From NCBI RefSeq assembly GCF_964204645.1, contig NC_134025.1:26504001-26568000 (forward strand): DNA of 64,000 bases, in the 5' to 3' direction. The notes beneath the pieces were generated by a model that saw only the letters and a program-made list of their open reading frames with translations, did not search any database and was not told the origin of the DNA. The position numbers were made by a program, and so were the translations under genes. Numbering within the stretch: the first letter of the stretch is position 1; each line of letters begins with the position of its first letter. Source of the DNA: Tubulanus polymorphus (taxonomy: Eukaryota; Nemertea; Palaeonemertea; Tubulaniformes; Tubulanidae). Positions 12,079-64,000 of this stretch are shown here, in pieces.

Positions 12079-12138
<60 letters not shown>

Positions 12139-29443: not shown

Positions 29444-32400
29444 ATGTTGGCAATGTGTGGTGTCTTGATATTCGTTTTATCATTGCTCTACGGAATCGGC
29501 AATGGGCAAGGTAAGAATCGGCGGATTTAGAAAGCGTGGCAAGCAATATTAAATTTTTGGCGCGCTCGTCGTCAGTTTCTACAATATGATTATATGAATT
29601 TTAGAGATTTTCTTCAAATAAACATTTACCAATTTGCCGCTTAAAATCCTGGTTAATCGAATGTTACGATGTTTGGTGTAATCAAAATTGATATTCGATA
29701 AACATGTATATCGATACATATGATTAAAAGATACTTTTTGAATACGGTCAAGTTAGGACGCACTATTATCAGAGTGTCGTAAGATTGATCATAATGAGAT
29801 CACACGCATGTATACTCATGAGCCTAAACGGAAAAAAATAACTACCATTGGAAATAAATAGGATTGGTCGTTTCACAACTTGAAAAACAATTCTTATCAT
29901 AAATTGTAGATTTACAAATGACATCATTCACGACAAGTCCAGCCACATTTTACCTGGGTGAAGCACAGAATGCCGTTCCTCTAACGATTAATATAGAAAA
30001 TGCCGATTCTTCAAACGTGATTCCTGCTGCAACATCTCCAAATGAGAACTATGTTTTCACATTCCAATTTGCAACGGGTACAACTCAAATTGGTTCAGTT
30101 ATTACAATAAGCGGTATTACACTAGCAGAAAGGCAAGTGGGTCTTGCAGCAGCGACTACTCTAACATTTACAGGTGCTACAGCAGATTATCCTGCATTAG
30201 ATGCAGTCACTTGTCCAGCAGCTACTCATCTATGTATGACTGTTGCCGAAAGTAGCACCGCTTACACAGATGCAGTAACAACTAATAATCAAGCATGTAT
30301 AACTATAACAAGAGTTTGCCAACCGGGTAAGTGCTTCTATACTTGAATCTCTGATGAATTTTAGAGATAGATTAATTCTAGAATGAATTGATTTTCATTT
30401 AGACCCAACGGCTTCTACAGGTCCAACATGGGTTGGACTAACTACACTACCACAGGGTACTGCCACATCGGTAACGTTTGACTTACCAATACAAAATGTA
30501 GCTGCATCGGGACAAGGAAATGATATCGTAGCTGCACCTACGGGCACGAAAAACTTTGCTACGGAATTGTATTTTGCGTCAGATAGCGCCGGAGCAACAG
30601 CAGTTACAGGGAATGTCGCGGCTACAGTGTCATCGAATGATGCCGCAGCTTTACCAGCAGATTCATCGACTACAGTTACTCTTCGAGCGACTGGAACTGT
30701 AACTTTACCATCTGCCATTTGCTATACTACCGACTTCTTGTGTGCCCGTGTGAAAGAAGGAGCTTCGTGTAAATGGGCTGATGCTGGCTCAACAAACAAT
30801 GTAATGTGTTCCTCGATAGTGTCAGTGAAAGCTTGCGATCCTGGTTTGTATAGATTTCTTACATTGTATTTACCGTATGGGATACCCATAAAATGAACGG
30901 TCTTTGCATTTTCAGACCCTATCACAAAGACATTTACACCACTTAGTACAGCTGAGTATATTCAACCAAACACGTTCACGTTAACATTTGATATCGTTTT
31001 CGAAAACACTGCTCCAGGCGGTAATTCAGATATAGCCTCAGTAACGGCTCCTAATTCCAATTTCAAAGTCGACATAATTTTGTCTAATATTGACATGACG
31101 ACTTGTGCTGCGGGTTCAGTGTCGATTTCATCTACTTCAAATGTTGACCAAACAGTGTCTCTAGCAAGTGGAGCAGTAACAAGTACAATATCTGGCAGTG
31201 CTTCAATAACGGTGCCTTCAGCCACATCAGACTGCAATGATATGCGGTATATTTGCGCAAGGTTGAACGTCCCCGCAACAGCATCTTACACAGATAAAGA
31301 CCTCACAAACAACTGTAAATGCGTCGATATATCGGCTCAGAAATCGTGCTTTCCTGGTACGTCTTATGATAATTTTGAGAAAATAATTTAGCCATTTGCA
31401 TGAACGTGTTAGTTAATTATGCAGAAGATTTTACACGATTTTATTCATAATAGATCTAAAGCTGAATAGTATAACGGGTACGCCAGTATCAGGAGTTCTA
31501 AATGATGCATCAGCCACAAATTATAAAATCACAACTGCCTTGAAAAATAATGCCGTGAATTCAGCAATCTACTCAGGAAACAATATTCTAGCTACAACTG
31601 GGACCGATTACAACTACGATATATCGGTTATCATTTCTAATGTTGATATCGGTGCTGGTGGAACTGATACTCTTGGACATTCTGCAATATCTATTTCATC
31701 ATATACAACACCAGCGCAAAGACAAACAGCTTTGGCAGCTCAGGCAACTACGTCGATCGTTGATATCGTCATGAGTATAACGATTGACCCGGCTTACTGT
31801 GCGAATGCGCTGTATTTATGTGCAACTGTGTCACGAGGTACCAACGCGAATTTCCCCACGGAAACAATCCTTGCAAACAATGCCCAATGTAAAGATATAT
31901 CAGCAACTTCAGATAAAACATGTACACCAGGTAAGTACATTGTACGGCGAAAAGTCATTTTATCACAGTTATGAAATGACTTATGACTGGCGTGTGTAGT
32001 CCGTTGTCATTGCCGAATGTATGAATAATACAAAAGGTATCTTATTCATTTTTAGATCCTGTTATAAATACATTCACAGTATCATCGGCTCATAATTTTA
32101 TTACTGGAGTTACTGTAGCTTCCGCCGCATTTGACATAACAATTGAGAACAGTGTCACTTCAAATGCTGATATAGCGGCTGCAACAGGAGGCAATATTAA
32201 TTTCAAAACGAACCTGATTCTTGCTAGTGCTGATATGGTGACATGTACTGCAGGATTTACAAGTACAGTTTCAACGGTCAGTAGTCAAGTAGCACTAGCA
32301 TCAGGAGCCACCACATCAGTAATCTCAGCTACAGGATCAGTAACAATGCCAACTGTAACAGCGGATTGTAACAATGCTAACTTTCTATGCGCGCAACTAG

Positions 32401-35400
32401 TAGCTGGAACTGGAGCAACTTATACAGATGGTGACACTACGAATAATTGCAAATGCGCGGATATAACTGCACAGAAATCCTGTTTCCCAGGTCGTATAAC
32501 ATCTCTAATTACCCAGAAGTTGTTGCTCAGTTGTCTAAAAACATATCCTAGTTTAAACCGTCTTGAATTTCAGATATTGATGTTCTATCCATTGTGTCAA
32601 ATGGCCCTTTGACTGCTGGAGAGAAAATAAATGATCAATCAGCCATTGATTATCAATTCAACCTTAATTTGAAAAATGTTGCAACAGCGGGTCTAGGAAA
32701 TCACATCTTACAGGCTACTGGTGCAAGTGATTACAACTATGTAGTGACCGCATATCTGTCAGATAACGATGTCAGAGGTGGAACTGCTGATACTTTGTCA
32801 CTTGGAAATATCGCCTCATTGACTTATACTTCCGGATCAGCATCAACGGAAAGAAAAGCAGCAATGGCAGCCCAGGCTACGCATTCATTAACATCGATAA
32901 ATATCAACTATCAGATACCTGATTTAACGAAATGTTTGACCGTCACATATTTATGTGCTACTGTTACTCAAGGAACAAACGCGCAATATGCAGCAGAAAC
33001 AGTAACAACTAATAATGTTCAATGTGTTGATATCAGTGCTGATATACAATGTAGTGCAGGTATGATAAACTGAAGTCATGCTTGAAGAAGAATGTTTTAA
33101 TGACTTTCTAATGGTACCATTATTTTTGTTACAGATCCAGTGATCAAGACGTTCACTCCACTTTCCACAGCGGTGTACATTCAACCTAACACGTTCTCAT
33201 TGACATTTGATGCTGTCTTTGAAAACACTGCTTCAGCAGGACACACTGACATTACGGCAGTAACAGCTCCTAATTCTAACTTCAAAGTCGACTTAATCCT
33301 GTCTAATATCGATATGACAACGTGTACTGCGGGTTCAGTCTCAATTTCTTCTACATCAAATGTTGACCAAATTGTTGCCCTTTCGAGTGGAGCCGTTACT
33401 AGTACAATATCCGGTAGTGCGTCAATCACAGTGCCTTCAGTCACCGCTGACTGTAATGATATAAGATACGTTTGCGCAAAGTTGAATGTACCATCAACTG
33501 CATCATATACAGATAGGGATCTCACAAATAACTGCAAATGTGTCGATATAACAGCCCAGAAATCCTGCTTTCCGGGTGCGTTCTAATTGGATTTAGATAA
33601 TGTTTTGAATCAATTGAGAGGTCAACCAGCTTGGAATAATTTGATCGATATTTCTTGATATTTTAGATTTAAAGATGACCAGTATAACAGGTGCTCCAGT
33701 ATCTGGAACTCTAAATGACGCATCTACAACAAGTTATAAGATCACAACAGCCTTGAAAAATAATGCAGTTAATACGGCAGCTTACTACGGAAATAACATC
33801 CTCGCCACGACTGGGACCGATTACAACTACGACATATCAGTTATCATTTCTAATGCTGATATCGGTGCTGGTGGAACTGATACTCTTGCACATTCTGCAA
33901 TTTCTATTTCATCATATACAACACCAGCTCAAAGACAAACAGCTTTAGCAGCTCAGGCAACTACGTCAATCGTTGATATCGTCATGAGTATAACGATTGA
34001 CCCGGCTAAATGTGCGAATGCTCTGTATTTATGTGCAACTGCGTCACAAGCTGCCAACGCAAAGTTTGCGGCTGAAACCATTCTAACAAATAACGCTCAG
34101 TGTAAAGATATATCAGCAACGGCGGATAAAATATGTACACCAGGTAATTTCATATGAATATTCGTGATAGTCGATACACATATCCTTTTCACACATAACT
34201 CAATGTTCTAATCGACTTGATTTCAGATCCTATCATCAAAACATTCTCAGTAGCATCGACGAATCATTTTATCACTGGAGTCGCTGTAGCTGCCGCAGCG
34301 TTTGATATTACATTTGAGAATAGTGCTACTACAAATGCTGATATAGCAGCTGCGACAGGAGCAAATATCAATTTCAAAGCAAACCTCATTCTTGCTAGTG
34401 CTGATATGGTGACATGTACTGCAGGATTTACAAGTACAGTTTCAACTGTCAGTAGTCAGGTAGCACTAGCATCAGGGGCTACCACAGCCACAATTTCAGC
34501 AACTGGATCAGTAACAATGCCAACTGTAACTGCGGACTGTAACAATGCTAACTTTCTATGTGCGCAACTTGTGGCCGGAACTGGTGCAACTTATACAGAT
34601 GGTGACAATACGAATAATTGTAAATGCGCGGATATTACTGCGCAGAAATCATGTTTTCCAGGTAAAATCGATTTATGCACTGATAATTGGTAAACATCTT
34701 GTGTGACTTCAATCGTATGTCATAAACTGTAACTACATGTAAATACCAATATACAGTTGAAGAAATATATCGGCATGTATACCTCATGGAAAAATAAATT
34801 CGCATAGAATGATTCCTTTGTAGATATCGACGTGGTGGCAATCGTGTCTAATGGTCCCGTGACTGCTGGGGAAAAACTGAATGATCAATCAGCCATTGAT
34901 TATCAATTCAACCTTAATTTGAAAAATGTTGCAACAGCTGGTCTAGGAAATAATATCTTACAAGCTACTGGTGCAAGTGATTTTAACTATGATGTGACCG
35001 CATATCTGTCAGATAACGATGTCAGAGGTGGAACTGTCGATACTTTGGCACTTGGCAATATCGCCTCATTGACTTACACTTCAGCATCAGCATCGACGGA
35101 AAGAAAAGCAGCAATGGCAGCCCAGGCTACACATTCATTAACATCGATAAATATCAATTATCAGATACCTGATTTAACGAAATGTTTGACAGTCAAATAT
35201 TTATGTGCTACTCTTACCCGAGGAACAAACGCGCGATATGCAGCAGAAACAGTTACAACTAATAATGTTCAATGTGTTGATATCAGTGCTGATATACAAT
35301 GTAGTGCAGGTATGATAATAAAAGCCACCCCTGAATCAATTCTTCCACCCATCCCGAATGATGACCCTGAACTAGCAAAAAATTATTCAATATTGTTTTT

Positions 35401-37562
35401 ACAGATCCAATAATCAAGACGTTCACTCCACTTTCCTCAGCGGTGTACATTCAACCTAACACATTCTCGTTGACGTTTGATGTTGTTTTTGAAAACATTG
35501 CTTCAGCAGGACACACTGATATAACGGCAGTAACAGCTCCTAATTCGAACTTCAAAGTCGACTTAATCCTGTCTAATATCGATATGACAACTTGTTCTGC
35601 GGGTTCTGTCTCAATTTCCTCGACTTCAAATGTTGACCAAACTGTTGCTCTTTCGAGTGGAGCCGTTTCTAGTACAATATCCGGTAGTGCATCAATCACA
35701 GTGCCTTCAGCCACATCAGACTGTAATGACATGAGATATGTTTGTGCAAAGTTGAACGTCCCTGCAACAGCATCTTATACAGATAAAGACCTTACAAACA
35801 ACTGTAAATGCACCGACGTATCCGCACAGAAGTCTTGCTTTCCTGGTGGGTTTAAACAAATCAAAGGCCGTTCAAATTCTATAACTTTTTACATCCATTA
35901 ATTTATGCATCGACATGAAAATGATTAAGTTTATATTTCTGCTTTATATGTTTACTTCATCTTTGTAGATATTCAAATGACCAGTATAACAGGTGCTCCA
36001 GTATCTGGAACTCTAAATGACGTATCAGCTACAAATTATAAGATCACGACAGGTGTAAAAAATAATGCAGTAAATACAGCAGCTTACTATGGAAATAATA
36101 TCCTCGCCACGACTGGGTCCAATTACAACTACGATATATCAGTAACCATTTCTAATGTTGATATCGGTGCTGGTGGAACTGATACTCTTGGACATTCTGC
36201 AATATCTATTTCATCATATACGACACCAGCACAAAGACAAACAGCTTTGGCAGCTCAGGCAACTACGTCGATCGTTGATATCGTCATGAGTATAACGATT
36301 GACCCGGCTAACTGTGCGAATGCACTGTATTTGTGTGCGACTGTATCTCGAGGAACCAACGCCAATCTTCCTGCGGAAACCATTCTCACAAATAACGCTC
36401 AATGTAAAGATATATCAGCAATCTCTGATAAAATATGTACACCAGGTATTTAAGGATACAGGGAATAACTGACAAATGTTGTATGTTTTATTCTAGATAT
36501 ATTGTTTTATTGTAGATAAAATTCAGATTTGGTTTCTTTTTAGATCCTATCATAAAAACCTTCTCAGTCGCTTCGACGAATCATTTTATCACTGGAGTCG
36601 CTGTTGCCGCCGCAGCGTTTGACATTTCATTTGAAAACATCGTTACTACAAATGCTGATATAGCAGCTGCAACAGGAGGCAATATTAATTTCAAAACGAA
36701 CCTGATTCTTGCAAGTGCTGATATGGTGACATGTACTGCAGGATTTACAAGTACAGTTTCAACTGTCAGTAGTCAAGTAGCACTAGCATCAGGGGCTACC
36801 ACGTCAGTAATCTCAGCGACCGGATCAGTAACAATGCCAACTGTAACAGCGGACTGTAACAATGCTAAGTACCTATGTGCACAACTTGTAGCTGGAACTG
36901 GTGCAACGTATACTGACCGGGATTCCACGAATAATTGTAAATGCGTCGATTTAACTGGACAGAGGTCATGTTTCCCAGGTATAAGCCTCGTTTTTATATC
37001 ATTGGTTTTACTATATCCATCCGCTTAAGTAATGGTGCTATTCAAATACCTTTACCTATTCATTTTAGATATCGATGCTGTAAGTATAACCTCCAACGGT
37101 CCGGTCCATGCTGGAGAGAAACTGAATGACTATTCAGCAATTGATTACAGATTCAGTTTAAATCTTCAAAACGTAGCTACAGTTAGCATTGGAAATGATA
37201 TACTACTTGCAACTGGTGCAAGTGATTATAACTATGTCGTGACTGCGTATCTGTCAGATAATGATGTCAGAGGTGGCACTGCCGATACTTTGTCATATGG
37301 TAATATCGCTTCATTGACTTATACCTCAGCATCAGCGTCGACGGAAAGAAAAGCAGCAATGGCAGCCCAGGCTACACATTCATTAACATCGATAAATATC
37401 AACTATCAGATACCTGATTCAGTGAAATGCGTGACAACAAAGTACTTATGCGTAACCGTCGATCGAGGGACAAATGCACAATACGTAGCGGAATCAGTTA
37501 CAAATAATAATATTCAGTGTTTAGATATAAGTGCCGATATCTATTGTAATGCAGGTAAATAG
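29444..37562 (+). CDS. 5' part of a giant repeat receptor, or a truncated duplicate (14 repeats)
   Basis: A signal-peptide exon (29444-29510, MLAMCGVLIFVLSLLYGIGNGQ cut at the end by a phase-1 donor) is followed by 14 repeat exons: 29910-30326 (a), 30403-30843 (b), 30916-31356 (c), 31454-31930 (d), 32056-32490 (e), 32574-33059 (f), 33135-33575 (c), 33667-34143 (d), 34227-34661 (e), 34824-35309 (f), 35405-35845 (c), 35969-36445 (d), 36544-36978 (e) and 37069-37554 (f). Every repeat exon is a multiple of three and begins and ends in phase 1. If translation runs past 37554, it stops at once (GK then TAG at 37560) and makes a secreted 2149-residue protein. No AATAAA or ATTAAA lies between 37555 and 38068, so splicing on to the repeat exon at 38429 is at least as likely. 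I do not recognise the family. Confidence 0.75.
29910..30843 (+). repeat. a-b repeat pair, first copy
   Basis: Repeat a (139 residues, four Cys, ends RVCQPG) and repeat b (147 residues, five Cys, ends ACDPG) occupy one exon each. The pair recurs almost unchanged at 38429-39367 after the second signal exon. A diverged version lies at 50576-51535, and the minus-strand paralog has one at 62813-63802. Confidence 0.85.
30916..33059 (+). repeat. c-d-e-f higher-order unit 1 of the first array
   Basis: Exons of 441, 477, 435 and 486 bases. Repeat c has the GGNSDIA variant. Repeat d has a divergent VNSAIYSGNN where most copies read VNTAAYYGNN. The e exon uses a weak donor, GTCGTA. Repeats c and e carry six Cys; d and f carry four. 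Confidence 0.85.
33135..35309 (+). repeat. c-d-e-f higher-order unit 2 of the first array
   Basis: The four exon lengths are the same as in unit 1. Repeat c has the AGHTDITA variant and carries VTADC and DITAQKS, which are otherwise typical of e repeats. Repeat d has ASQAANAKF in place of VSRGTNANF. Confidence 0.85.
35405..37554 (+). repeat. c-d-e-f higher-order unit 3 of the first array
   Basis: Same exon lengths. The last f repeat (37069-37554) ends ADIYCNAG. It is the final repeat exon before the second signal-peptide exon. Confidence 0.85.
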
Positions 37563-38068
37563 GCGTGATAATACATGTAACCTTCTTGATACTGATGTTT
37601 CGATGAGTTTGTTGACCGCCGCCAGTCTAAGGGGTATCAGCTTGTTTTCAACTCGTATTATTTTAAGACAATTGCTTTAGTAATCTTTTATGCTAGACAG
37701 TTCAATACTTGAAATAGGTTGTTTATGAGCCATATATTTCGCAATTACTTCGTCTTCGTCGCAAGGCATTTTGTCAATAGAATTATACATACCTCCCTGA
37801 ATGTAAATGACTTTTCAACAAAAGATATTTGTCGACCGTAACTGCTCTAATCTGGTTTTCGTGACCACTCACTAATTCCACCGAAGCGTTGAAAAATAAT
37901 CTAATCTTTGGCCATTAGTAAACATTTCAGCGAATGAGTGAATTGTTTTGCGCCTATGTTACATATATTTCTGACCAAGAGCGGCGGTTTTCATCGAGAA
38001 AGGGAATAACTAAATGTCTGATAGACCTCACTTTCAAAATATCTTTGTTATGGATTAGGGAAAATACA
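37555..38068 (+). promoter_or_regulatory. Candidate internal promoter before the second signal exon
   Basis: This 514-base stretch separates repeat exon f from a new signal-peptide exon. Most introns in the array are 60-160 bases. It holds no repeat, no polyadenylation signal and no clear TATA box. The promoter role is inferred from the signal-peptide ATG at 38069. Confidence 0.35.
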
Positions 38069-41000
38069 ATGGGGAAAATAGTTTTGGGTTTGCTATGGAT
38101 TTGCTCATTTTTAATGAGTACGGTGATCGGACAAGGTACGTAAGTTTCTTGGGTGATTATCCAAGTAGGATGATCAGCGTTTCTGTTCATCGAGAAGCTA
38201 TTATATGTGACTGGTCGGCAAAGGCAGCTTCTTGCGACCGAATATCTTTTCTTAAGAAAATTTCTAAATTGATTCTGAAATGGTAATCCTTGCCATCCAT
38301 GCTAATATATGACGACTTTTTAGGGAAATGAACCAATGATAAAAGCTTGCTAAAATTAATTGTAATATTCTTCAATTGGTTGGTAATGATATAGATAGCG
38401 AAGACTTGATTCCATTCCATATTTGTAGATTTGGAAATGACTTCGTTCACAACAAATCCAGAAACATTCTACCTGGGTGAAGCACAGAATACTGTTCCAC
38501 TCACGATTAATATAAGAAATGCCGATTCGTCAAACGTGATTCCTGCTGCAACATCTCCACATGAGAACTATGTTTTCACATTCCAATTTGCAACGGGTAC
38601 AACTCAAATTGGGCCAGCAATTACTATAAACGGTATTACACTAGCAGAAAGACAAGCGGGTCTTGCGGCAGCGACTACTCTAACATTTACAGGTGCTACA
38701 GCAGATTATCCAGCACTGGATGCTGTAACATGTCCAGCAGCTACTCATCTATGTATGACTGTTGCCGAAAGTAGCACCGGTTACGTAGATACACTTACAA
38801 CCAATAATCAAGCATGTATAACTGTAACTAGAGTTTGCCAACCGGGTAAGTGCTTCTAAATAATGAATCTGCGATTTTTGTATCTACAAGAACAAAGAAG
38901 TTCTACTGGGAATTCATCTTTTCCAGATCCAACGGCATCTGCGGGTCCAACTTGGGTTGGACTTACGACCTTGACCGCAGCAACAGCCACAGCGGTTACG
39001 TTTGACTTACCAATACAAAATGTAGCTGCATCTGGACAAGGAAATGATATCGTAGCTGCACCTACGGGCACGAAAAACTTTGCTACGGAATTGTATTTTG
39101 CGTCAGATAGCGCCGGAGCAACAGCAGTTACGGGGAATGTCGCGGCTACAGTGTCATCGAATGATGCCGCAGCTTTACCAGCAGATTCATCGACTACTGT
39201 TACTCTTCGAGCGACTGGAACTGTAACTTTACCATCTACCATTTGTTATACTACTGACTACTTGTGTGCCCGTGTGAAAGAAGGAGCTTCGTGCAAATGG
39301 GCTGATGCTGGCTTAACAAACAACGTTAAATGCTCATCGATAGCGTCAGTGAGAAACTGCAACCCAGGTATCATCGAAGGCTTTAACGCTATTTTGTGAG
39401 GATTGATTGTGTAATACCTTTCTGAAAACTGCTTTGATATTTCAGATCCAGTAATTAAGACGTTCACTCCACTTGCATCAGCGCATTATGTCCAGCCAAA
39501 TACGTTCACTTTAACATTTGATGTCGTCTTTGAAAACACAGCTCCAGGTGGTAATGCAGACATAGCCTCGGTGACAGGTCCTAACTCAAATTTCAAAGTT
39601 GATATAATATTGTCAGATATTGACATGACCACTTGTACAGCGGGTTCGGTGTCGATTTCATCTTCATCAAATGTTGACGAAACGGTGGCTTTAGCAAATG
39701 GAGCGGTAACTAGTACAGTATCTGGCAGTGCTACGATTGCAGTACCTTCAGCTTCATCTGATTGTAATAATATAGCATATGTTTGTGCTAAGTTGAATGT
39801 TCCTTCAACAGCCTCTTATACGGATAGAGACCTCACAAACAACTGCAAATGTGTCGATATTGTAGCACAAAAGTCCTGTTTCCCTGGTAAAGACATTTTT
39901 TTCTAACATTTTAATATTCCCAACTTGGGAAATAACTCAAATCACACATTTTGATAAAATATTTTATTCTGTATTGTATAGATGTCAAGATGAACAGCTT
40001 AACAGGTGCTCCAGTATCAGGAACACTAAATGATGCATCCGCCACAAATTATAAGATTACATCTGTCCTGAGAAATAATGCTGTAAATACGGCAGCTTAC
40101 TACGGAAATAATATTCTGTCCACGACTGGGTCCGATTACAACTACGATATATCAGTTATCATTTCTGATGCTGATATCGGTGCTGGTGGAACTGATACTC
40201 TCGGACATTCTGCAATATCTGTCTCATCATATACAACACCGGCACAAAGACGAACAGCTTTAGCGGCCCAGGCAACTACGTCGATCGTTGATATCGTCAT
40301 GAGTATAACGATTGACCCAGCTAAATGCGCGAATGCTCGATATTTATGTGCAACTGTATCACGAGGTACCAACGCAAATTTCCCCGCAGAAACAATCCTC
40401 ACAAACAATGCACAATGTAAGGATATATCAGCAACCTCAGATAAAACATGTACACCAGGTAAGAAAAATAGATCATTTTAACAAATACATTTCTTTTTGA
40501 TCAACAATTGATATTTCGAGAGTGAGCAATTTTTCAGTCAAGTGGGGATTACTATTGGTTATGTTATTGAAATTCACAACGAGATAAACTCATCAAATTC
40601 ATCTCCATTCACAAAAATGATGTCATTCTCAATTTCAGATCCCGTGATAACTACCTTTTCCATTGCATCAACGGACCGTTTTATTACTGGAGTTGCAACT
40701 ACTACGTCATTCGATACTAAATTTCAGAATATCGCAACAACTAATGCAGATATATTGGCTGCTACTGGGGGTAATATCAACTTCAAAACTAACATATTCT
40801 TGGCAAACGCTGATATGTTGATATGTACATTACCGGGAATAACAACTTCTGTATCCACTGTAAGTAGTCAGGTAGCAATTGCATCAGGAGCCACTACGGC
40901 AACCATCGGAGCAACAGCATCAATAACAATGCCAACTGTAACAGCGGACTGTAACAATGCTAATTATTTGTGCGCGCAACTTGTGGCTGGAACTGGTGCA

Positions 41001-44000: not shown

Positions 44001-47000
44001 TATATACATCTATGACTGCTGAATTGCATTTCAGATCCAATAATCAAGACGTTCACTCCACTTTCCACTGCGGTGTACATTCAACCAAACACATTCTCAT
44101 TGACATTTGATGTTGTTTTTGAAAACACTGCTTCTGCAGGACACACCGATATAACGGCAGTAACAGCTCCTAATTCTAACTTCAAAGTCGACTTAATCCT
44201 GTCTAATATTGATATGACAACTTGTTCTGCGGGTTCAGTGTCAATTTCTTCAACTTCAAGTGTTGACCAAACTCTAGCGTTGGCAACTGGAGCAGTGACC
44301 AGTACAATATCTGGTAGTGCTTCTATTACGGTACCTTCAGCTACATCCGACTGTAATGACATTAGATATGTTTGTGCAAAGTTGAACGTCCCTGCAACAG
44401 CATCATATACAGACAACGACCTTACAAACAACTGCAAATGTGTCGATATATCAGCACAAAAATCCTGTTTTCCAGGTATGTCTCGTACCCTGGTTAACAT
44501 GTATTTCTTTTTAGATTCTTAATTTCGTTACCAGGCGATACTGAGTGTTCTAACAGATTAGATACGTATTAATGATTTAATACCTGAATTCTAAGTGCGT
44601 TTTGCTTCTTTTGCTCTGTAAATGTGCATTAATACTTAAAGAATAAACCATTGGTTTTTTTTGAAACCATGAACAGCATATTTCATATAAACATAAACGT
44701 GCTAAGTGATTTCAATTGTATATCGTCTTGTAGATTTCAGGATGACCAGTATAACAGGTGCTCCAGTATCGGGAACACTAAATGACGCAACTGCTACAAG
44801 TTATAAGATTACGACAGCCTTGAAAAACAATGCAGTAAATACGGCAGCTTACTACGGAAATAACATCCTCGCCACGACTGCGTCCAATTACAACTACGAT
44901 ATATCAGTAATCATTTCTAATGCTGATATCGGTGCTGGTGGATCTGATACTCTCGGACATTCTGCAATATCTGTTTCATCATATACAACACCAGCGCAAA
45001 GACAAACAGCTTTGGCAGCTCAGGCAACTACGTCGATCGTTGATATCGTCATGAGTATAACGATTGACCCGGCTAAATGCGCGAATGCTCTGTATTTATG
45101 TGCAACTGTGTCTCGAAATACAAATGCGAATTGTGCTGCTGAAACCATTCTAACAAATAACGCTCAATGTAAAGATATATCAGCAACTTCAGACAAAACA
45201 TGTACCCCTGGTTCGTATAATTCTTGAATCGAACTCTCTGATATTACATCATCGGAAATAGAACGATAAACACACTCAAACGTGGTGAACGGATAATAAG
45301 ATAAAAACCCACTACCTACAAATTAAAAGAATTTAAAAACAAGAAATTCATTTACTCGAACAATCTAAAAAAATTTTGAACTTCGAATATTTTATAAATT
45401 TAGATTGTTCGAATAAATGAATTTCTTGTTTTTAAATTCTTCTTATTTGTAGATAGTGGGTTTTTATCTAATTATCATCGGAAATATTTATATGTGTATA
45501 CATATGATTCTTTTCGTGTATTCATACTTTTTTTATAATAGATCCTATCGTCCACACGTTTACGATTCCATCAACCGATCTCTTTATAACTGGGGTTGCT
45601 GTCACGCCGTCAATCACCATCAAATTCCAGAATACTGCAACTACAAACGCAGATATATCTTCTGCAACTGGTGCAAACGTAAATTTCAAAACGAATCTGA
45701 TTTTGGCAAACGCTGATATGTCCACGTGCACCCTACCAGGAATAACGAATACAATATCTACCGTGAGTAGTCAAGTGGCGCTTGCATCAGGAGCGACCTC
45801 ATCCGCCATTTCAGCAACTGGATCGGTAACGATGCCAACTAGTATCCCGGATTGTTACAATGCAAACTACCTATGTGCTCAACTTGTGGCCGGCACCGGT
45901 GCAACTTACACAGATGGTGACACTACAAATAATTGTAAATGCGCAGATATTACTTCACAAAAGTCGTGTTTTCCGGGTAAGTCAACTTAGACCTTCTATA
46001 AAAATTTGAGATAAATTCATGTATATATATCATGTATTGGCATCAGTCATACATAGTTTTGATTTGCACTAACAGATATCGACGTGGTGGCAATCGTGTC
46101 TAATGCTCCTGTCACTGGTGGAGAAAAACTCAATGATCAATCTGCTATCAACTATAAATTCAACCTCAATCTACAAAATGTCGCGACTGCAAGTTTAGGA
46201 AACGACATCTTACAAGCTACTGGTGCGAATGATTTTAACTATGATGTGACAGCGTATCTGTCCGATAACGATGTCAGAGGTGGAACTGCTGATACTTTGG
46301 CACTTGGTAATATCGCCTCGTTGACTTACACATCAGTATCAGCCTCAACTGAAAGAAAAGCAGCAATGGCAGCCCAGGCTACACATTCATTAACATCGAT
46401 CAATATCAACTATCAGATACCTGATGCAACAAAATGTTTGAGTGTACGATATCTATGTGCCACTGTTGGTCGAGGAACGAATGCAAAATATGCTGCAGAA
46501 ACAGATATTACTAATAACGTCCAGTGTCTTGATATCAGTTCTGATATAAAATGCAGCCCAGGTCAGTTTACAAGACATTTACCATATTGTGCATTTATCC
46601 CATGTGAATACTGTTTTATTATGTTAATATAAATTATTGTATAATATTCCAGATCCAGTTATCAAAACATTTACTCCGCTTGCATCAGCTCTCTACATCC
46701 AACCGAACACATTGGCTTTGTCTTTTGATGTCACCGTAGAGAATACTGCATTAGGTGGAAACTCGGATATAGCCTCAGTAACGGCTCCTAATTCTAATTT
46801 CAAAGTCGATGTCATTCTGTCTAATATTGACATGACGACTTGTGCTGCTGGTTCAGTTTCAATTTCATCTACTTCGAATGTTGACCAAACTGTGTCTCTA
46901 GCAAGTGGAGCAGTAACAAGTACAATATCTGGAAGTGCTTCAATCTCAGTACCTTCTGCCATATCAGACTGCAATGAAATGAGATACGTTTGTGCGAAGT

Positions 47001-50000
47001 TAAACGTCCCTGCAACAGCATCTTATACAGATAAAGACCTCACAAACAACTGCAAATGTGTTGATATATCAGCACAGAAATCCTGCTTTCCAGGTATATG
47101 ATGATCCAATGATCTAACGTGCATATCGGCCTCTTCATAAATATGAATCATAATAAACATTACCCGGTGATAATTTTTTACAGATGTAAAAATGACATCT
47201 ATAACTGGCGTTCCAGTATCGGGGACACTTAATGACGCATCAGCCACAAATTATAAGATCACAACCGTCTTGAAAAATAATGCAGTAAATACGGCTGCAT
47301 ATTACGGAAATAATATCCTCGCAACGACTGCGTCCAATTACAACTACGATATATCAGTAATAATTTCTAATGCTGATATCGGTGCTGGTGGAACTGATAC
47401 TCTTGGACATTCTGCAATATCTATTTCATCATATACGACACCGGCGCAACGACAAACAGCTTTGGCAGCTCAGGCAACTACGTCGATCGTTGATATCGTC
47501 ATGAGTATAACGATTGACCCGGCTAAATGCGCGAATGCACTGTATTTGTGTGCAACTGTATCTCGAGGAACCAACGCAAATTATCCTGCGGAAACCGTGC
47601 TCACAAACAACTATCAGTGTAAAGATATATCAACAACCTCGGATAAAACATGTTCCCCTGGTTAGTGAGGAAAGACTTTTTTATTATCGTACATTTGCTA
47701 TATGCTGATACTATTTTGAAACAAAATAAGCATAATGGCAAATTGTTTTGTTCATGATGATTATCTGACATGTATATAAATTATTTCAGATCCAATTGTG
47801 AGTTTGTTTACAGTTTCATCTACTGATCGTTTCATCACCGGAGTTGCAACCACCACGTCATTTGACACGAAATTCCAAAATATCGCAACAACTAATGCAG
47901 ATATATCGGCTGCAACTGGGGGTAATATCAACTTCAAAACTAACATATTCTTGGCAAACGCTGATATGTTAATATGTACATTACCGGGAATAACAACTTC
48001 TGTATCCACTGTAAGTAGTCAGGTAGCAATTGCATCAGGAGCCACTACGGCAACCATCGGAGCAACAGCATCAATAACAATGCCAACTGTAACAGCGGAC
48101 TGTAACAATGCTAATTATTTGTGCGCACAACTTGTGGCTGGAACTGGTGCAACTTATACTGACGTGGACGCTACAAACAACTGTAAATGTGTCGATATTA
48201 CTGCGCAGAAATCATGTTTTCCTGGTGAGTTTGTACGGTACTGAATGATAAACCTTTTCATATTTCAATATGATGCATTATTTTCGTTACCTTTTTTGAA
48301 AGATATCGATGTAGTGAGCATAGCCGCCAATGGACCTGTGACGACTGGGGAAAAACTGAATGATCAAACAGCAATTAACTACAAATTCAGCCTGAATCTC
48401 AAAAACGTTGCGACGGTGGGTCTAGGAAATGACATCTTGGAAGCTACTGGGACCACTGATTATAACTACGTAGTGACTGCATATCTGTCTGATAATGATG
48501 TCAGAGGTGGCACTGCTGATACTTTGTCTCTTGGCAATATTGCCTCATTGACTTACACCTCAGCATCAGCATCAACGGAAAGAAAAGCAGCAATGACAGC
48601 CCAGGCTACACATTCATTGACCTCGATAAATATCAACTATCAGATACCTGATGCAACAAAATGTTTGACAGTGTCGTATCTATGTGCTACCGTTGGTCGG
48701 GGAACAAACGCGCAATATGCAGCAGAAACAGTTACAACTAATAATGTTCAATGTGTAGATATACGTACTGTTATACAATGCAGCCCAGGTTTGTTCTAAA
48801 TACCACTCATGCGTCTAACATTCCTTATCCGATAATTTTATGTTTTTTTATTTTACTGAACCTTTTTTTAGATCCAATCGTCCAAGCATTTACACCGACG
48901 TCAGCAGTTGTCTTTCAACGAGGAGTGGCAGTATCGACGAGTTTCACGATTGTTCTTAAAAATGATGCACCTGCCGGTCACACTGATATACAAGCAGCAT
49001 CTGGAAGTGGAGTGAATTTTGATGTTTCTTTGTATTTGAGTGATGTAGATCTTTCTACTGGTGCCAACCCAACCGTTTCTTTGCCCTTTACGAGTGATGT
49101 TTCTAAAGGTGACGCTCTGGCGCGAGCTGCTCTTCTTCCAGCTACTGGATCAATCAGTGGTACCTCAACAGTTACTATGCCAGATGCATCAACTTGTAAT
49201 AGTATCAAATTCCTGTGTGCTCATACCGCTACTGGAACTGGAGCGACCTTTACGGACAGAGATTTAACAAATAACTACAAGTGCACCAATATTGTTGCTC
49301 AAAAGTCTTGTTATCCAGGTAATGGTAAGAACTTCTTCAGCTTTCGTCCCATTTCCATGTAGCTGTACTGAATGTTTTGTTTCTATCCTCTCATATCTAG
49401 ATATCAATATAGCAAGTCTGACTGGCGCTGCTTTAAATGTTGGTGAATTGATCAACGATAATCTACCTATAGATTTCCGATTAACCATAGGTCTTCAAAA
49501 TGTAGCCCCTACGAAATCAAATTACGGCAATGACATTTACGCAATTTCTGGTATTGGCAATTACAATTATGACGTTACAGCATATGTCTCTAATGCTGAT
49601 GTTGGAGCAGGTGGTATCAACTCACTGTCCAATCATGCAATTTCACCGTTAACTTACACAACGGCATCCCAAAGACAAGCTGCATTAGCAGCCGGTGCGA
49701 CACATTCGTTGACGAATATTGATACAAATTATCAGATCCCAAGTGCAATTTGTATAGATGCAACTCATCTATGCGTTCAAGTATCTGCTGGAAATAATGC
49801 AAAATTCACCGAAGATGTGCTGACTAATAATATCAAGTGTATATCCCTTGGAACAACGAAAGTGTGCACAGCAGGTAACGTAACCATAGATGAAGTATCC
49901 TGCAATGTAATAATTCCGAGAAAAATTGTTTAACCTTTGTCATTTTTGTAATTCTATAGATTGGGACTGTATTAGTTTTGCTGATGATAATGATCCGATA

Positions 50001-53000
50001 TACAAAGACAGCCTAGCTACACCAATAACCTTTACGGCCAATGTAAAACACATCGGTCCAGATCCACCGGCGCGAAATATCCCATCAGTTGTAGGAACAA
50101 CAAGTAACTACATATCCTTTCTTTTTTCTTATTTTCGGGGGTATAACTTAAATCTTTACATTTAACTTCATCTTTGTCGCAGGTACAAATTTCGTTCTCG
50201 AGATTCGACTAGCTCAATTTGATATTCGTGCAGTTGGTATAGCATCTGATACATTGAATCTGATTCAGACATCAGCTCCCACAACTGCAGATGATCTGAA
50301 AGTTGGCATGAACTACGGGGAGACAATAGCGTTCACTGGAACGGCCACTATAACTGTGCCATCTGCACAATGTGACAATATAATATACATGTGTGCAAAA
50401 ATAGGACAAGGTACAGCGACAGGGCTTTATAACCTCGCGTCGAATGATTGGAGTTGCACGAATATAAAAAACAGAGTCAGCTGCGCTATAAGTATGTTAT
50501 CACAAATGTTGTGTGTATCAAAAAGTCATTGAAAATAATTCTCGTTTTCATTGATATAGATATGTTGCATTACAGATGCTCAAATACCAGCGTTCACAAA
50601 TCCACCGGAACTGACACTGGGTGTTGCTCAAACTGGGGTAGCCCTAGACATTAATGTTAAGAATGCCGCTACCACGGACAATATTGCTGCTGTAACAGGA
50701 ACTAATGAAAACTTCGTCTTTACGTATACCTACGAACAAGAAACAGCACCGGGGGTATACTCAGTAATATCGACGCTTACAATTAGTGGACTGACTGTCG
50801 CAAAACGCCAGGTTGGTATAGCGGCTACAGCGACTCACACATTTACTGGAGCTTCCGTTGATTTTCCAGCTTTAACGACGTATACCTGTCCCCTTGTGAC
50901 ACATGTCTGTGTAGAAGTACAAAAAGGGACGGGAGCGTCATACATTGAGTCCGCTACCACTGATAACAGAAAGTGTACCCAAACGCAGAGGATGTGCTTT
51001 CCAGGTAATGAATCATTATTGATGGTGATAAAATCAAATCTTTAAACAAAGGCGTTAATGACGTTATCTTTCATTTTAGACCCTACGTGGAAGGCACCAG
51101 CACCTAACAATCCAACTTGGGTAGGACTGGCAAATATTCCACAAGCCACAGCTACTACGGTTACATTCGATGCCATCATATTCAATACGGCTCCGACCGG
51201 ACTGGGCAACGATATTCTTGCTGCCACAATGGGGGACAAAAATTATGCCCTCGAACTATACTTTGCATCTGATAGTAGTGGATCTTCATCATTAACAAGT
51301 AATTTTACTGCAACCCTCAGTACAAATGATCAGGCAGCTTTACCGGCTGATAGTGGGACAACATCTGTAACGATCCGAGCATCAGCAACTGTGACACTTC
51401 CTACAGCTAATTGTCCTCAGGCCGATTATCTTTGTGGCCGAATAAAACCAGGAACTGGTCCAAAATGGGTCGACAATGTGTTAACTAATAACGTTTCCTG
51501 TTCCACAATATTGTCCGTCAGAGGTTGTAATCCAGGTAAGCCCTAAATTGGGTTATGATTTATTTCATTTTCAAAGAATGTAATATGTTGATTGATGTAG
51601 ATGCATGTTCCATTCTACAAATATAATTTTCAGATCCAATTGTGAATTCATTTACGGCACCAACAGACACGTTTGTAAGATCAGTTAATGTTCCAACCTC
51701 AGGATTTGATGTCATTTTACAAAATATAGCACCCGGTGGAAACTCAATCATAACAGCTGCTTCTGCGGGTAATGTTAATTTCAACATCACTTTGACTTTG
51801 ACGGACGTTGATTTAAGCACAGGAGCGACAGCAACAGTTTCCGTAGTTTCAACAACCACTATCAATAAAGCGGATGCATTAGGAAGCGCCAATTCATTGT
51901 TGCCTACTTCTGGTAATTTTGCGGGAACAAGTTCTATTACGATGCCGGATTCAGTAAACTGCAACAAAATCAAATTTATTTGCGCTAGAACCGAAGAAGG
52001 AACTGGTGCAACGTTTACTGATGTTAATTCAAACAACAATTACAAATGCAGCAATATAGTTGCGCAGAAAACATGTTTCCCAGGTAAAATTATAGATTAT
52101 TCAGCACCATCAATTGTTCTCCAATGTTATCATTTTTGATCATATAACTACAAACTATTCCGTTTATAGTTCTATGATTTAGTTTTCTGTCAGATTTTGA
52201 AGCGAGCATTACTGATAAGTGGTGGATTATTTGCCTTTGCCTTTGTAGATGTCGACATTACGAGTCTATCGGCGTTAGGACCAGTCACCGGTGGTGATAA
52301 ACTAAATGATCGTGCAGCAATTAACTACAAATTCACTGTTAATTTACAAAACGTTGGAGCAACAACCGCCGATTACGGCAACAACATTCTAGCAGCAACC
52401 GGTGGAAACTCTAATTACGAAGTAAAATGGTACATCTCCGATGCCGATGTCAGACCCGGTGGTGGGACGAACACTTTGGGTATTGCGCAAAGTGGAGTTG
52501 TGACTTACACAACTCCAGCGCAGACACAAGCGGCGATGGCAGCTGGAGCAACGACTTCCATAGTTGACGTCCAAATAAATTACATGATCCCACAAGCGAA
52601 GTGTCCTAATGCCGCTTACTTATGCGCATACGTGCAGGCTCACAGTACCGCGAAATACATCGAAACACCATTAACGAATAATTTGTATTGCTCTAGCATA
52701 CTGGCTGATAAGAATTGCGCACCAAGTAAGTTTCTACATCTAAGTTCCCTTCATCTAAAAGATTAAGTTCCAATACATACATTATACATCTACCTAGACA
52801 ATGTCTCGACATACAGTTTCAAATGTTTCATTTAAGTTTTTACCAATCTAAATGGAGCTGTATCTGTACCAGAAAATACGACATCAGGTTCCGATATATT
52901 TAACGCCACAGCCACTGACGGCAATGGTGATACACTTACTTATTCAATCCAAGCTGGAGTCGGGCCATTCACTATCAATACTGCCAGTGAGTGTGAAATA

Positions 53001-56000
53001 TCCACATATTTTCATACAGTCATTTTTGATAATAACTTCTCTAATTGACTACGTGTTATTCATTTTAGCTGGAGATATCTCGTTAACGGGAACTATCAAT
53101 TTCGAGGTTGATCCTACAACATACTCTTTAGGCGTTTATGTTACTGACGGAGTCTACAGCGTCACTGATAAAGTATTGACGATTACAATCACAGATTCGA
53201 ATGATCCTCCAGTTGCAAGCAATTTAGCACCCAATGTAGCTAACGCGGCAGCTACTGTTACCTTTGCGGAAGATTATACTGGTCAGGTATTTGATGCTGC
53301 ACATACAGATGAAGATTTGCCGGCACAAACAATCACATATTCTATTCAAAGCGTTTCATCAGGCGGTACCAATGTTGCGAGTTATCCATTTTCAATTGAT
53401 GGAGCCAATGGTAAGCATCAGTTTAGTTCTAAACATGTATATGAACAGTATTTCCATATGTTTCTAGATGATTATGTATGTTTTATTTTCTATACAGGGC
53501 AAATAACAGTTGTCAGTCCTTTTCTTAATTATGAGGCTTACACCGTTTACGAGGTCATCATACTAGTTACAGATGATGGGTCCCCAATCAAATCTAGTAG
53601 TGGTACCCTGACAGTGAGCGTCACTAATGTACAAGAACCTCCTGTTTTCACAAAGCTACCAACAACAGTGAATATTCTTGAAAGTGAGACAGTTGCAAAA
53701 ACAGTTTTTACCTTGGCAGCGGTTGATCCTGAAAATGATGCTGTAAGTTACAAATTGTCCGCAAGTCCTTTCGATGGCAAATTCTATATGGATGGTAACA
53801 GTAAGTAGATTATCAACTATTGGTGCTGACAGAATTTCAGAACTTCTTATTCCTAACCATTCATCACGTAGATTAAAAGTCAAGTCTACACACATCATTT
53901 TATTATAGGTATTAAACACAATGCTAATCCAGGATTTGATCACGAATTCAAATCAAGCTACATACTTAGCGTTTTAGCATACGATGGGAATGTTCCTGGT
54001 AATGTTGAAAGGTTAACTGTGATGATAGATAACGTTCCCGAAGTTCCAAAGTTTACCAACCTTCCTGGTGTGGCTACTGTCCCAGAGAATAGGGTTAATT
54101 CTGCAACGATTTTCAAGGTTTGCCCTCAGAGGATAACTTGAGTATTTTGATGATAGATTGTACTTCAATGATTTTAAACATTTCTACAACTTTTTATCAA
54201 AGGTGCAAGCAGTTGACGAGGAAAATGATGCAATCACTTATAGTGTTGTTTCTGTTTATCCTCCCGAGGGTTCGAGTAAATTTACATTGGATTCAGGTGA
54301 ATATTTTTTCATTGACAAATAATATTTCATTATACAAATAAAATCATTTTATTTACATGAAAATTATATTTCAAAATAAGCTATGTTATCATCAAAAGAC
54401 CGTTTGTATAAGAAAATCTATGCTATATTAGATTATCTTTTATTTGCAGCTACTGGTATTCTCACTCAATTAGCAAGTCCTCAGTTAGACTTTGAAGCGT
54501 ATTTCAATTCGTACGAACATTTGATAAAGGCTTGTGATTCGAGTGGCTGCAGCTCCGCGAATCTAACAGTTGACGTTCGTAATATCAACGAGGTTCCAGT
54601 AACGAGTACACCAAAGAAAACCATTAGAATAAAAGAAACAGTTAGTTCATAATGTCATTTCTAATAAATGTATTGCAGTAAAGAATTCAAATAACAAATA
54701 TTTATTTTCTCCGTTTTTCTTCTTTCAGGAAACTGGAAGTTACACCCATGTTCCAGTCCACAGTGATACTTCTTGTACTCAATTAACGACAATTTACACT
54801 AGTTTGATTACAATGAGCGGCTGTACTGTTAATGTCGTAATGACTGATCTCGATAAATCAAACGGTTACCCGTCATCATTCTATGCAGGCAAGTAAAGAA
54901 ACTACTTGATGTTTGGTTACCAATTGGTTTGCATTTTGGCAGCACTCCATTACTCTCTCATTTCGTTTTACAATTCTAGATATAACAGAAAAGGATAATG
55001 GTGGACTCTTTGCGACAATCGGAATTGAAGTCGAAATACAGAATGTTAACGACGAAACACCCGTGTTCACATTAGGCTCAAATCCGAGTTCAACAGTCTC
55101 AGAAGATGCCACTTCTGGAACGACAGTATTTTCATTCACTGTTACCGACGCCGATTTACCTCCATTTGACATTTTTTCTATAACTGTCGATCCATCCACT
55201 TTAGCATGGAACTATTTCCAAGCATCTATGATAAGTGCGTCGGTCGGGATTGTAACGGTTAAATCACCTCCAGATAGAGAATCTATTTCAACTATGTTAA
55301 TAAAAGTGTTAGCAGTTGATAGTGATTTTGTCTGGGTTCCTGCAACTATTAATACTGGTCAGATTAACCAAACGGTCACCATCACAAATGTAAACGACAA
55401 TATTCCTGTAATGAGCAAAGATCTATACAATTGGGAAATATCATCTACGGCGAAAATGGGAAAATATATTGGTGTATTGTCAGCCACAGATGGAGATATA
55501 GGTACGTGTATTGTTTGTAAGAGGATAGCTTCTTATCTCGAGTAAGAGATTGAGGCTTGCTCTTAATAGAATTTGCTTTTTTTTCCATTTTAGAGTTTAA
55601 TATTGTAAGTTATGAGTTTCTGTACAGTTCAACTGAGTTCACATTAGGACAGTCTACTGGTGATGTAAATAGCCGCGTTACACCTTTACTCGACAAGCAT
55701 AAATACCTACTCTATGCTGTTGCCAAAGACAATGTACCAGTTCCTCCATCTTTTACCTCCTTGTAAGAAAGATTTAATAACGAAAATTAAGTTAGATTAA
55801 CAGATGCATTGAATTCATGTTTCTTTTTATATTCATTCTCTATTCATCAGAGTTAGTACAATAAGAATTGACACCTACAATGAATCTGATGTTCTATCAA
55901 GCTGGTATACGAATAAAACGCTGGATTATTGGATACCTTCAACGATTCAAGACTTCTTAGCTGCAGCGAGTTCTGTTTGTGGAAAGTGTGTGGCAAGGCT

Positions 56001-56803
56001 TCACAATGTTTCTGATGTGGAGTACCGGTGTGTTTCCTATTAATCTTAGATCTAACAACGTCTTTTAATTTGTATTCATATTTTTCTCTATATCATTTCG
56101 ATTTGCAGTACCAATTCGAAGCTTTTGCTTTACTTTCTACAAGATGATTCGACAAATCTTATTGGAAATATAGGCCGAAGAAAGGAGTTCATGAACGTTG
56201 ATTCCTTGATAAATCTGTATACCGAAGATACCAATGGAACTCCAATACAGGCCATACAAACAAATGCCTTGTTTTCTGGGTTTCCCGTTTCGAAAATTGA
56301 AAGAACAGTTGCTTCATCTGAGGTTCCTTATAACTTCTGGAGGGACAATATTGGTGCTCACTTGTTGATTGGATCTGGCCAGTGTATAGCATTAGCTCTG
56401 GTTCTTGGATTTATCGCATGGGCAACCTATAAAAGCCACCCGGGGCCATTAAATAAACAGTGAGTTGAATTAAAGCCGAGTGGTTTAAAAGTAGATGATA
56501 AGTAAGGAATTTATAATAGATTCTTAATGCTACTATGTCAATTATTTTCTTTACAGCGCTATGGCTGATGATTTTATATACAGTCGGCGGTCCGTACTCA
56601 ATAACAAAATATGGCCTGCTTGGCAAGACATAACACCTGCACCAACCACTTCACCGAGAGTTATTATCAGGAATCAGAAGACGAACCATCCTCTTCCCAG
56701 CCCACCGAGGCGTGAGCCAAGCAATGCAAGCACATCTGATGTTGTTTTCAATATTCATCCGGGGTCGACGGGTGATGGCTTCATTCCTATGGACAACTGG
56801 TGA
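38069..56803 (+). CDS. Giant repeat-cadherin transmembrane receptor
   Basis: 38 exons give 4790 residues. Signal exon 38069-38135 (MGKIVLGLLWICSFLMSTVI). Repeats: 38429-38845, 38927-39367, 39446-39886, 39982-40458, 40639-41073, 41167-41652, 41742-42182, 42271-42747, 42831-43265, 43467-43943, 44035-44475, 44734-45210, 45542-45976, 46076-46561, 46653-47093, 47184-47660, 47790-48224, 48303-48788, 48872-49318, 49401-49874, 49960-50103 plus 50183-50491, 50576-51004, 51080-51535, 51634-52083, 52249-52725. Cadherin-like region to the end: 52837-52986, 53069-53410, 53498-53800, 53909-54117, 54203-54296, 54450-54640, 54729-54888, 54980-55501, 55594-55762, 55851-56027, 56109-56459, 56557-56803. The product would be a type I membrane protein with a very long repeat ectodomain. 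Adhesion or recognition is inferred from the architecture. I know no named animal family with this combination. Confidence 0.85.
38429..39367 (+). repeat. a-b repeat pair, second copy
   Basis: The exons are 417 and 441 bases, exactly as in the first copy. Long nucleotide runs are identical to 29910-30843, including DSAGATAVTGNVAATVSSND in repeat b. A recent duplication or conversion of the array's 5' end explains this. The signal-peptide exons in front of the two pairs are not similar in sequence. Confidence 0.85.
39446..41652 (+). repeat. c-d-e-f unit 1 of the second array
   Basis: Repeat c is of the GGNADIA variant. Repeat e is of the variant class with LICTLPGITTSVSTVSS, nearly identical over most of its length to repeat e of unit 4 (47790-48224). 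Exon lengths are 441, 477, 435 and 486. Confidence 0.85.
41742..43943 (+). repeat. c-d-e-f unit 2 of the second array
   Basis: Repeat c again has e-like VTADC and DITAQKS ends. Repeat e has the c-like DISAQKS end. Repeat f is 477 bases, nine shorter than the other f exons, with SPNERK where others read SASASTERK. Confidence 0.85.
44035..46561 (+). repeat. c-d-e-f unit 3 of the second array
   Basis: Longer than other units because the introns around d and e are enlarged, one by a fold-back element at 45292-45476. Repeat d has an extra cysteine (NTNANCAAET). Repeat e is of the CTLPGIT class with SIPDCYNANY. Confidence 0.85.
45292..45476. repeat. Long fold-back (inverted repeat) in an array intron
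   Basis: Arms of about 80 bases surround a short AT-rich loop near 45371-45396. The core arms read ACAAGAAATTCATTTACTCG and its inverse GAATAAATGAATTTCTTGT. ATCATCGGAAATA flanks the structure in direct orientation at 45248-45260 and 45474-45486, like a target duplication. A fold-back MITE is likely. Confidence 0.75.
46653..48788 (+). repeat. c-d-e-f unit 4 of the second array
   Basis: Repeat c returns to the GGNSDIA variant seen in the first units of both arrays. Repeats e and f closely match those of unit 1 (40639-41652), including TGTTDYNY in f. Exon lengths are 441, 477, 435 and 486. Confidence 0.85.
48872..52725 (+). repeat. Seven diverged membrane-proximal repeats
   Basis: In order: a c/e-like repeat ending SCYPG, a d/f-like repeat, a unique repeat split over two exons (49960-50103 and 50183-50491), then an a-like, a b-like, a c/e-like and a d/f-like repeat (lengths 149, 158, 151, 143, 152, 150 and 159 residues). 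They lack the near-identity of the quartets. They have one-to-one counterparts in the minus-strand paralog, so they predate that duplication. Confidence 0.8.
52837..56803 (+). other. Cadherin-like repeats, membrane-adjacent domain, TM and cytoplasmic tail
   Basis: About six to seven cadherin-type repeats are marked by SVPENTTSGSDIF, DSNDPPVASN, VDPENDAVSYKL, VTNVQEPPVFTKLP, VDEENDAITYSV, VNDETPVFTLG, SEDATSGTTVFSFTVTDADL, LAVDSD and NVNDNIPVM. Several DxNDNxP calcium motifs are incomplete. A membrane-adjacent region with a C-G-K-C pair follows (SVCGKCVARLHN). One transmembrane helix is at about 56365-56420 (IALALVLGFIAWATY). The tail has about 95 residues and ends GDGFIPMDNW. The exon ending at 54888 uses a GC donor. 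Confidence 0.8.
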
Positions 56804-57060: not shown

Positions 57061-57066
57061 AATAAA
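57061..57066 (+). terminator. Polyadenylation signal of the plus-strand receptor gene
   Basis: AATAAA lies 258 bases past the stop at 56803, the first such hexamer in the 3' UTR. Confidence 0.55.
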
Positions 57067-63500: not shown

Positions 63501-64000
63501 GGTCAACGCTGGGAAATCAACGGTAGCTCCTGTGAAGGTGTGAGTCGTTGTGGCCGCTATACCAACCTGGCGTTTTGCGACAGTCAGTCCACTTATTGTA
63601 AGCGTCGATATGACTGAGAATGACCCCGGTGTAACTTCCTGTTCGTAAGTGTATGTAAATACGTAGTTTTCATTCGTTCCTGTTACTGCGGCAATATTGT
63701 CCGTTGTAGCAGCATTCTGGACGTCTATTTGCAGGGCAACCCCAGTTTGAACCACACCCAGAGTGAGTTCCGGTGGAGTTGTGAACGTTGGTAATTTAAT
63801 ATCTGCAAGATTTACTCAAAACAAATAGTGACGATTGATGATGATACAGGTCTGGATATTATGCAAATAGATTTACTTACTTATCGCACAACTCACTCTA
63901 TCCTTGATGTATATACAGCACCAATCGTTTGGAGTAAGGTTAATGAACCCAGTTACGGTCCCTTGTCCAATTCCTGCGCATAGATAGTTTGTTCTGTCAC
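57509..64000 (-). CDS. Inverted paralog of the repeat-cadherin receptor (3' part, runs off the window)
   Basis: Exons in transcript order: 63881-64000 (partial), 63374-63802, 62813-63268, 62266-62715, 61661-62137, 61410-61559, 60982-61323, 60589-60891, 60249-60457, 60028-60121, 59705-59895, 59451-59622, 58853-59374, 58579-58747, 58314-58484, 57885-58232 and 57509-57797. Most exon lengths equal those of the plus-strand gene exactly (429, 456, 450, 477, 150, 342, 303, 209, 94, 191, 522, 169). The visible part holds the last five diverged repeats, the cadherin-like region, the membrane-adjacent domain (SVCGTCIARLHN), a TM helix (SSLALFLGILAWAAY) and a tail ending DTGYIPMDNW. The C-terminal seven residues differ from the plus-strand gene only at Tyr versus Phe. 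The N-terminal part, signal peptide and any quartet array lie beyond the right edge. Confidence 0.85.
61661..64000 (-). repeat. Diverged repeats of the paralog
   Basis: Five repeats, the outermost partial, correspond in order and exon size to 50183-52725 on the plus strand. The outermost is the counterpart of the unique split repeat (NYLCAGIGQGTVTG, ends DRVSCAI). Confidence 0.85.

Follow-up and report, generated by a model that had tools for sequence, protein, structure and literature searches.

A giant single-pass cadherin gene of the nemertean Tubulanus polymorphus with an N-terminal array of up to 39 predicted Ig-like repeats

Introduction

Several animal and choanoflagellate proteins combine cadherin repeats with unexpected partners, or build large ectodomains from Ig-like domains. 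Hedgling, coherin and lefftyrin of choanoflagellates and sponges are cadherins with hedgehog, cohesin, FN3 or phosphatase domains. Hydractinia Alr proteins are transmembrane and hypervariable, with few Ig-like domains and no cadherin repeats. In abalone VERL, the N-terminal repeats bind lysin, and the two of them show positive selection (PMC3567151). At the highly polymorphic Botryllus fuhc locus, what had seemed to be a single gene with alternative splicing was in the end described as two adjacent genes; the one for the membrane protein encodes three Ig domains, and the account considered here mentions no cadherin (PMC3691228).

We analyzed a window of 64,000 nucleotides from Tubulanus polymorphus (assembly GCF_964204645.1, contig NC_134025.1, positions 26,504,001 to 26,568,000). 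As judged from its exons, a + strand gene in this window is an intact gene for a single-pass transmembrane cadherin with an N-terminal array of cysteine-containing repeats.

Results

The + strand gene runs from an ATG at 29444 to a TGA ending at 56803, with one open frame throughout; both ends fall exactly on the span given in a preliminary description of this DNA. From the 5' end, a signal exon is followed by 39 homologous repeats, cadherin exons, one transmembrane (TM) helix and a short tail. A convergent paralogue begins downstream. The features, in window positions, are as follows.

29444..29510, + strand: signal exon 1, MLAMCGVLIFVLSLLYGIGNGQ, ending in phase 1
29910..37554, + strand: upstream repeat block r1-r14, order a b (cdef)x3, 14 phase 1-1 exons
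38069..38135, + strand: internal signal exon 2, MGKIVLGLLWICSFLMSTVIGQ, phase 1, inside an 874-bp gap
38429..48788, + strand: repeats r15-r32, order a b (cdef)x4
48872..52725, + strand: seven diverged, membrane-proximal repeats, r33-r39
49960-50103 and 50183-50491, + strand: repeat r35, divided
52873..55762, + strand: cadherin ectodomain, nine exons, with six repeats recognised by Pfam and about seven counted by eye
55851..56459, + strand: juxtamembrane domain and TM helix LLIGSGQCIALALVLGFIA
56557..56803, + strand: cytoplasmic tail exon, C-terminus GFIPMDNW, then stop
57061..57066, + strand: candidate poly(A) signal AATAAA of the + strand gene
57509..64000, - strand: 3' part of the convergent paralogue, with a tail ending GYIPMDNW, TM, cadherin exons and repeats matching r36-r39

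Summed exon lengths predict about 6,900 aa for a product that starts at signal exon 1; with signal exon 2 as the start, the figure is about 4,780 aa. The earlier claim of nearly one repeat per exon is borne out, with 38 of the 39 repeats lying in single phase 1-1 exons with AG/GT borders, separated by introns with a median of 91 bp. The 12 exons that follow the array (52873-56803) join in a single frame, across introns of which one is GC-AG. That intron, at 54888 in the cadherin region, has the donor gcaagt; by eye, the paralogue seems to have GT there.

A tetraspanin gene lies elsewhere in the window (2180-2869, - strand; PF00335, 1.1e-14), as do exons resembling Numb on inspection by eye (9592-15719, + strand); taken singly, these exons have no Pfam match. 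On another sequence of the assembly, C12:7069001-7071500 holds a conserved 18S 3' end and an apparent ITS1 after an approximately 118-bp GC-rich tandem array, not an 18S gene; the interval has no Rfam match.

The cadherin-like repeats and single TM helix of the preliminary description are both present. PF00028 matches the region after the array at 2.1e-44, in six stretches, and sequence matches of this region include CELSR1, protocadherins and cadherin-23 (CDH23). The one helix found has a hydropathy of 2.2 over 19 residues. Pattern matching recovers the linker-like motifs DSNDPP, NVNDET and NVNDNIP, plus one DRE and one DAD. The other linkers are degenerate, making classical calcium-rigid adhesion doubtful for part of the stalk. 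The juxtamembrane domain has no Pfam or PDB match, and the tail matches neither Cadherin_C nor any other Pfam family at E up to 1. On these sequence features the protein is a member of the cadherin superfamily and, by its tail, not a classical cadherin. Long cadherin open frames of 900-1757 aa, intron-free and clustered in the manner of protocadherins, occur at C5:250-272k, 2.28-2.59M and 19.2-19.34M.

AlphaFold models of one c and one f repeat are beta-sandwiches with short helices (pLDDT 82 and 89), and the structures nearest to them are mostly Ig-like; the repeat is thus predicted to be an Ig-like domain. Fold comparison against the PDB gave no outstanding match, the best being ASF1 (Z 7.0) and a beta-galactosidase sandwich domain (Z 7.5). 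ZP-C appears among the generic Ig-like folds listed in that comparison, and Pfam scans gave no match to a ZP domain. CARDB (PDB 3idu, 2kl6) has a similar Ig-like sandwich (Z 6.3, rmsd 3.8, 102 aligned) and differs from the repeat, which has four conserved cysteines; identity with CARDB was rejected, as its Z is tied with many other folds and there is no Pfam CARDB match. A Pfam scan of 38 repeats found no family below E 0.009, and a PDB sequence search for the repeat returned weak or generic matches only. The best profile match, to a phage coat protein (E 0.0017), spans only 50 profile positions and was taken as chance. No cadherin with such repeats was found in the literature searched. The repeat, and its combination with cadherin, thus seem undescribed in Pfam, the PDB and that literature.

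The repeats share the invariant columns N, I, N, C, C, N, C and C, in keeping with their earlier description as cysteine-containing. Most have four cysteines and the c and e types six, with odd counts (5) only in the b repeats r2 and r16 and in r26. Mostly even numbers (4 or 6) are compatible with disulfides inside each domain. Mean identity between repeats is highest at offsets 4, 14 and 18. In a tree, types c, d, e and f each form one group in which copies from the + and - strand genes are intermixed, so the types are older than the split of the two giant genes. Of the diverged repeats, r36 is placed with type a and r37 with type b; r33 and r38 fall among the c/e types. The membrane-proximal repeats therefore look like an old array behind the outer blocks, and we infer that the outer blocks grew from it.

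The array is constrained and not young. Pairs of the same type among the c, d, e and f repeats have a dN/dS of 0.08-0.2 and a dS of mostly 0.4-1.2 (Nei-Gojobori), values that compare copies within one haplotype rather than alleles or species and that conversion can blur. A per-codon parsimony count over these types gave 31-58 purifying sites per type and 0 diversifying sites at p below 0.05. Types a and b, which form the outer end of the predicted + strand proteins, are likewise constrained, with a dN/dS of 0.12-0.29 between paralogous copies. Low dN/dS with high dS indicates that constraint, rather than recent origin, accounts for the high protein identity of the repeats. A recent diversifying expansion was rejected on both counts, dS being too high and dN/dS too low. 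The dS values do not support the statement that the array had recently duplicated. Nor is there support for the self/non-self or gamete receptor that had been deduced from it, since the repeats are strongly purified and have no diversifying site.

Repetitive sequence of this kind could also arise as an assembly artefact or a pseudogene array, a reading that we regard as scarcely credible given introns that differ in length, protein identity between repeats of at most about 94%, dN/dS of about 0.1, and 39 repeats with neither a stop nor a frameshift. The locus is not a chance pattern: it is stop-free, its dN/dS is 0.08-0.2, and its architecture recurs in the convergent paralogue and in smaller relatives.

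The paralogue is built from the same kinds of repeat. Its counterpart of r35, which straddles the window end, is also divided, as in the + strand gene, and the gene extends to about position 77441 (C1:26581441) with 25 repeats in all. The C-termini are GFIPMDNW in the + strand gene (56780-56803) and GYIPMDNW in the paralogue (57509-57560, - strand); the latter contains a YxxM-type sequence, where the + strand gene has F. A DNA pattern for IPMDNW plus stop, searched over the whole assembly, matches the two giants only. Divergence between the twins is mosaic: r33 and r37-r39 are nearly identical (dS 0.09-0.19), and their neighbors r34 and r36 are far apart (dS 0.7-1.3). This alternation of near-identical and diverged segments suggests conversion between the inverted copies.

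Five smaller repeat loci lie on the same chromosome, at C1:about 842-848k (+), 854-864k, 236-242k (-), 28.853-28.860M and 29.275-29.280M. At all five, matching cadherin or TM exons follow shortly after the repeats. At 854-864k and 28.85M, the two loci read exon by exon, the repeats lead into cadherin exons, then a TM helix and a dissimilar tail. These small members have about 3-6 repeats, several of them intron-split like r35. Outside the two giants and the small C1 loci, no repeats were found in the assembly at the search sensitivity used. The + strand gene is, as far as these matches tell, part of a small one-chromosome family whose other members, bar the giant twin, keep few repeats. Since the small members retain a few repeats together with cadherin and TM exons, the join between repeat and cadherin appears ancestral, and the few-repeat form is probably the ancestral one from which the giants derive. 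The linkage is conserved and phase-compatible in both giants and recurs in the smaller members, making it unlikely that the repeat exons are not joined to the cadherin exons, a possibility that the preliminary description had raised. The members at C1:236-242k (-) and C1:842-848k (+), 0.6 Mb apart and in opposite orientation, are almost identical where read.

The giant arrays have nearly lost their N-glycosylation sequons. With the split r35 left out of the counts, the + strand array (29910-52725) has 4 sequons against 103 expected by shuffling (s.d. 8), a depletion of about 25-fold. The paralogue has 5 against 60 expected, and 13 divergent type representatives have 3 against 32, all three in the membrane-proximal r37 and r38. 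The small members have 17 against about 23, near expectation. Loss of N-glycans thus goes with amplification of the array, and selection may have favored bare surfaces able to pack or bind.

Bare surfaces of this kind would suit direct protein-protein recognition, as in an allorecognition (self/non-self) or gamete-recognition receptor with the array as its variable recognition surface. A large tandem Ig-like ectodomain whose repeats are exchanged between paralogues also resembles known recognition loci, and the mosaic divergence of the twins suggests such conversion. The strong purification of the c, d, e and f repeats, with no diversifying site in the one haplotype compared, argues against this role, which we consider unlikely; purifying selection between paralogous repeats is nevertheless compatible with allelic diversity. 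Neither a self/non-self nor a gamete role appears to draw support from the sequence. The array, constrained, repetitive, rich in T, A, S and N and without N-glycans, might instead be a secreted or shed structural material, a matrix, mucus or tube polymer for which the cadherin and TM parts would serve as an assembly anchor. We hold this to be improbable, as the TM helix and tail are intact, the C-terminal motif is conserved in both twins, and the small members share this TM architecture.

Within the array of each giant lies a second signal exon, directly before an a-b pair. It occupies the same place in each, in the sole intron-like gap of about 800 bp (874 bp in the + strand gene and 807 bp in the paralogue). 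The inner exons are at 38069-38135 and 69310, the outer ones at 29444 and 77441. A strict scan (ATG, hydrophobic core, cleavage-like end, phase 1 donor) recovered the inner exons and had no match in 69 kb of background or in the other introns of the + strand array. The exon at 29444 misses the -3 rule of that scan and was accepted by eye and by a separate signal-exon search. We thus take both signal exons of the preliminary description, 29444-29510 and 38069-38135, to be genuine. We lean towards alternative promoters, which would yield forms of 39 and 25 repeats from the + strand gene and of 25 and 13 from the paralogue. First exons normally have no 3' splice site, so transcripts begun at the outer exon would bypass the inner one, with every join in phase 1.

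Alternatively, each locus may comprise a pair of neighboring genes. The upstream one would encode a secreted array of 14 or 12 repeats, with its own signal exon and no TM helix, and the downstream one a membrane receptor with 25 or 13 repeats; this arrangement is compatible with any of the proposed roles. Each locus does have two signal exons and a big gap before the second, and translation continued past the r14 donor terminates at once (CNAGK, then stop). The r14 donor is nonetheless a plausible splice site, and no terminal exon common to the two gaps was seen. The + strand gap has no AATAAA or ATTAAA, whereas both main genes carry AATAAA after their stops; this carries little weight, the chance density being about 1 per kb and the paralogue gap having candidates. 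Poly(A) signals were set aside as an arbiter between one gene and two, as AATAAA is common in this DNA. Botryllus fuhc provides a precedent for two genes (PMC3691228). We regard two genes per locus as possible, though less likely than one.

Discussion

The strong conserving selection on the repeats points to a conserved, long-reach adhesion tether rather than a rapidly changing self/non-self receptor. We give about even chances to the proposal that the + strand gene encodes a giant adhesion or tether cadherin with a conserved, bare, multivalent array. From the size of the domains, such an array would extend as a rod to well over 100 nm, presenting many nearly identical, N-glycan-free surfaces to a ligand, for which the same array on a neighboring cell or a matrix component is a candidate. 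The cadherin stalk and TM helix would anchor the array, and the short tail might link it to the cytoplasm via short peptide motifs and not catenins. Repeat number would then set reach and avidity. Over evolution, unequal exchange could add or remove copies of the four-exon cdef unit; within an animal, length could be chosen by use of the outer or the inner signal exon from alternative promoters.

A more ambitious reading is that of a new receptor family, joining an undescribed four-cysteine Ig-like repeat to cadherin, with glycan-free arrays in the two giants whose length is switched by signal-peptide first exons and which serve cell or individual recognition; as a whole we find this rather unlikely. 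The locus is of interest for coupling cadherin repeats with many tandem copies of a domain unnamed in the libraries searched, and for the array growth that it seems to record, from a few-repeat ancestor through duplication of a four-exon block. Two marks were unexpected: N-glycosylation sites are nearly lost in the amplified arrays alone, and both twins carry a second signal exon inside the array.

As in CELSR, FAT/Dachsous and CDH23/PCDH15, large non-classical members of the cadherin superfamily, the predicted protein has EC domains within one very long ectodomain chain. Here, however, that ectodomain is mostly an unrelated array, predicted to be Ig-like, and neither EGF/LamG domains nor a catenin tail could be recognised. 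Like hedgling, coherin and lefftyrin, it adds unexpected N-terminal domains to cadherin repeats, though its repeat differs from theirs as they are described. With Hydractinia Alr it shares a transmembrane form and, by prediction, Ig-like domains, and it departs from Alr in its long array and cadherin repeats. If the upstream block were its own gene, adjacent secreted-type and membrane-type coding blocks would recall Botryllus fuhc, from which the strong constraint found here, in one haplotype, sets it apart (PMC3691228). Like VERL, the protein has a long tandem array of extracellular repeats, Ig-like by prediction here and ZP-N in VERL; unlike VERL, its repeats are purified, including, by dN/dS between paralogous copies, the N-terminal a and b types, have another signature, and are carried on a transmembrane cadherin (PMC3567151).
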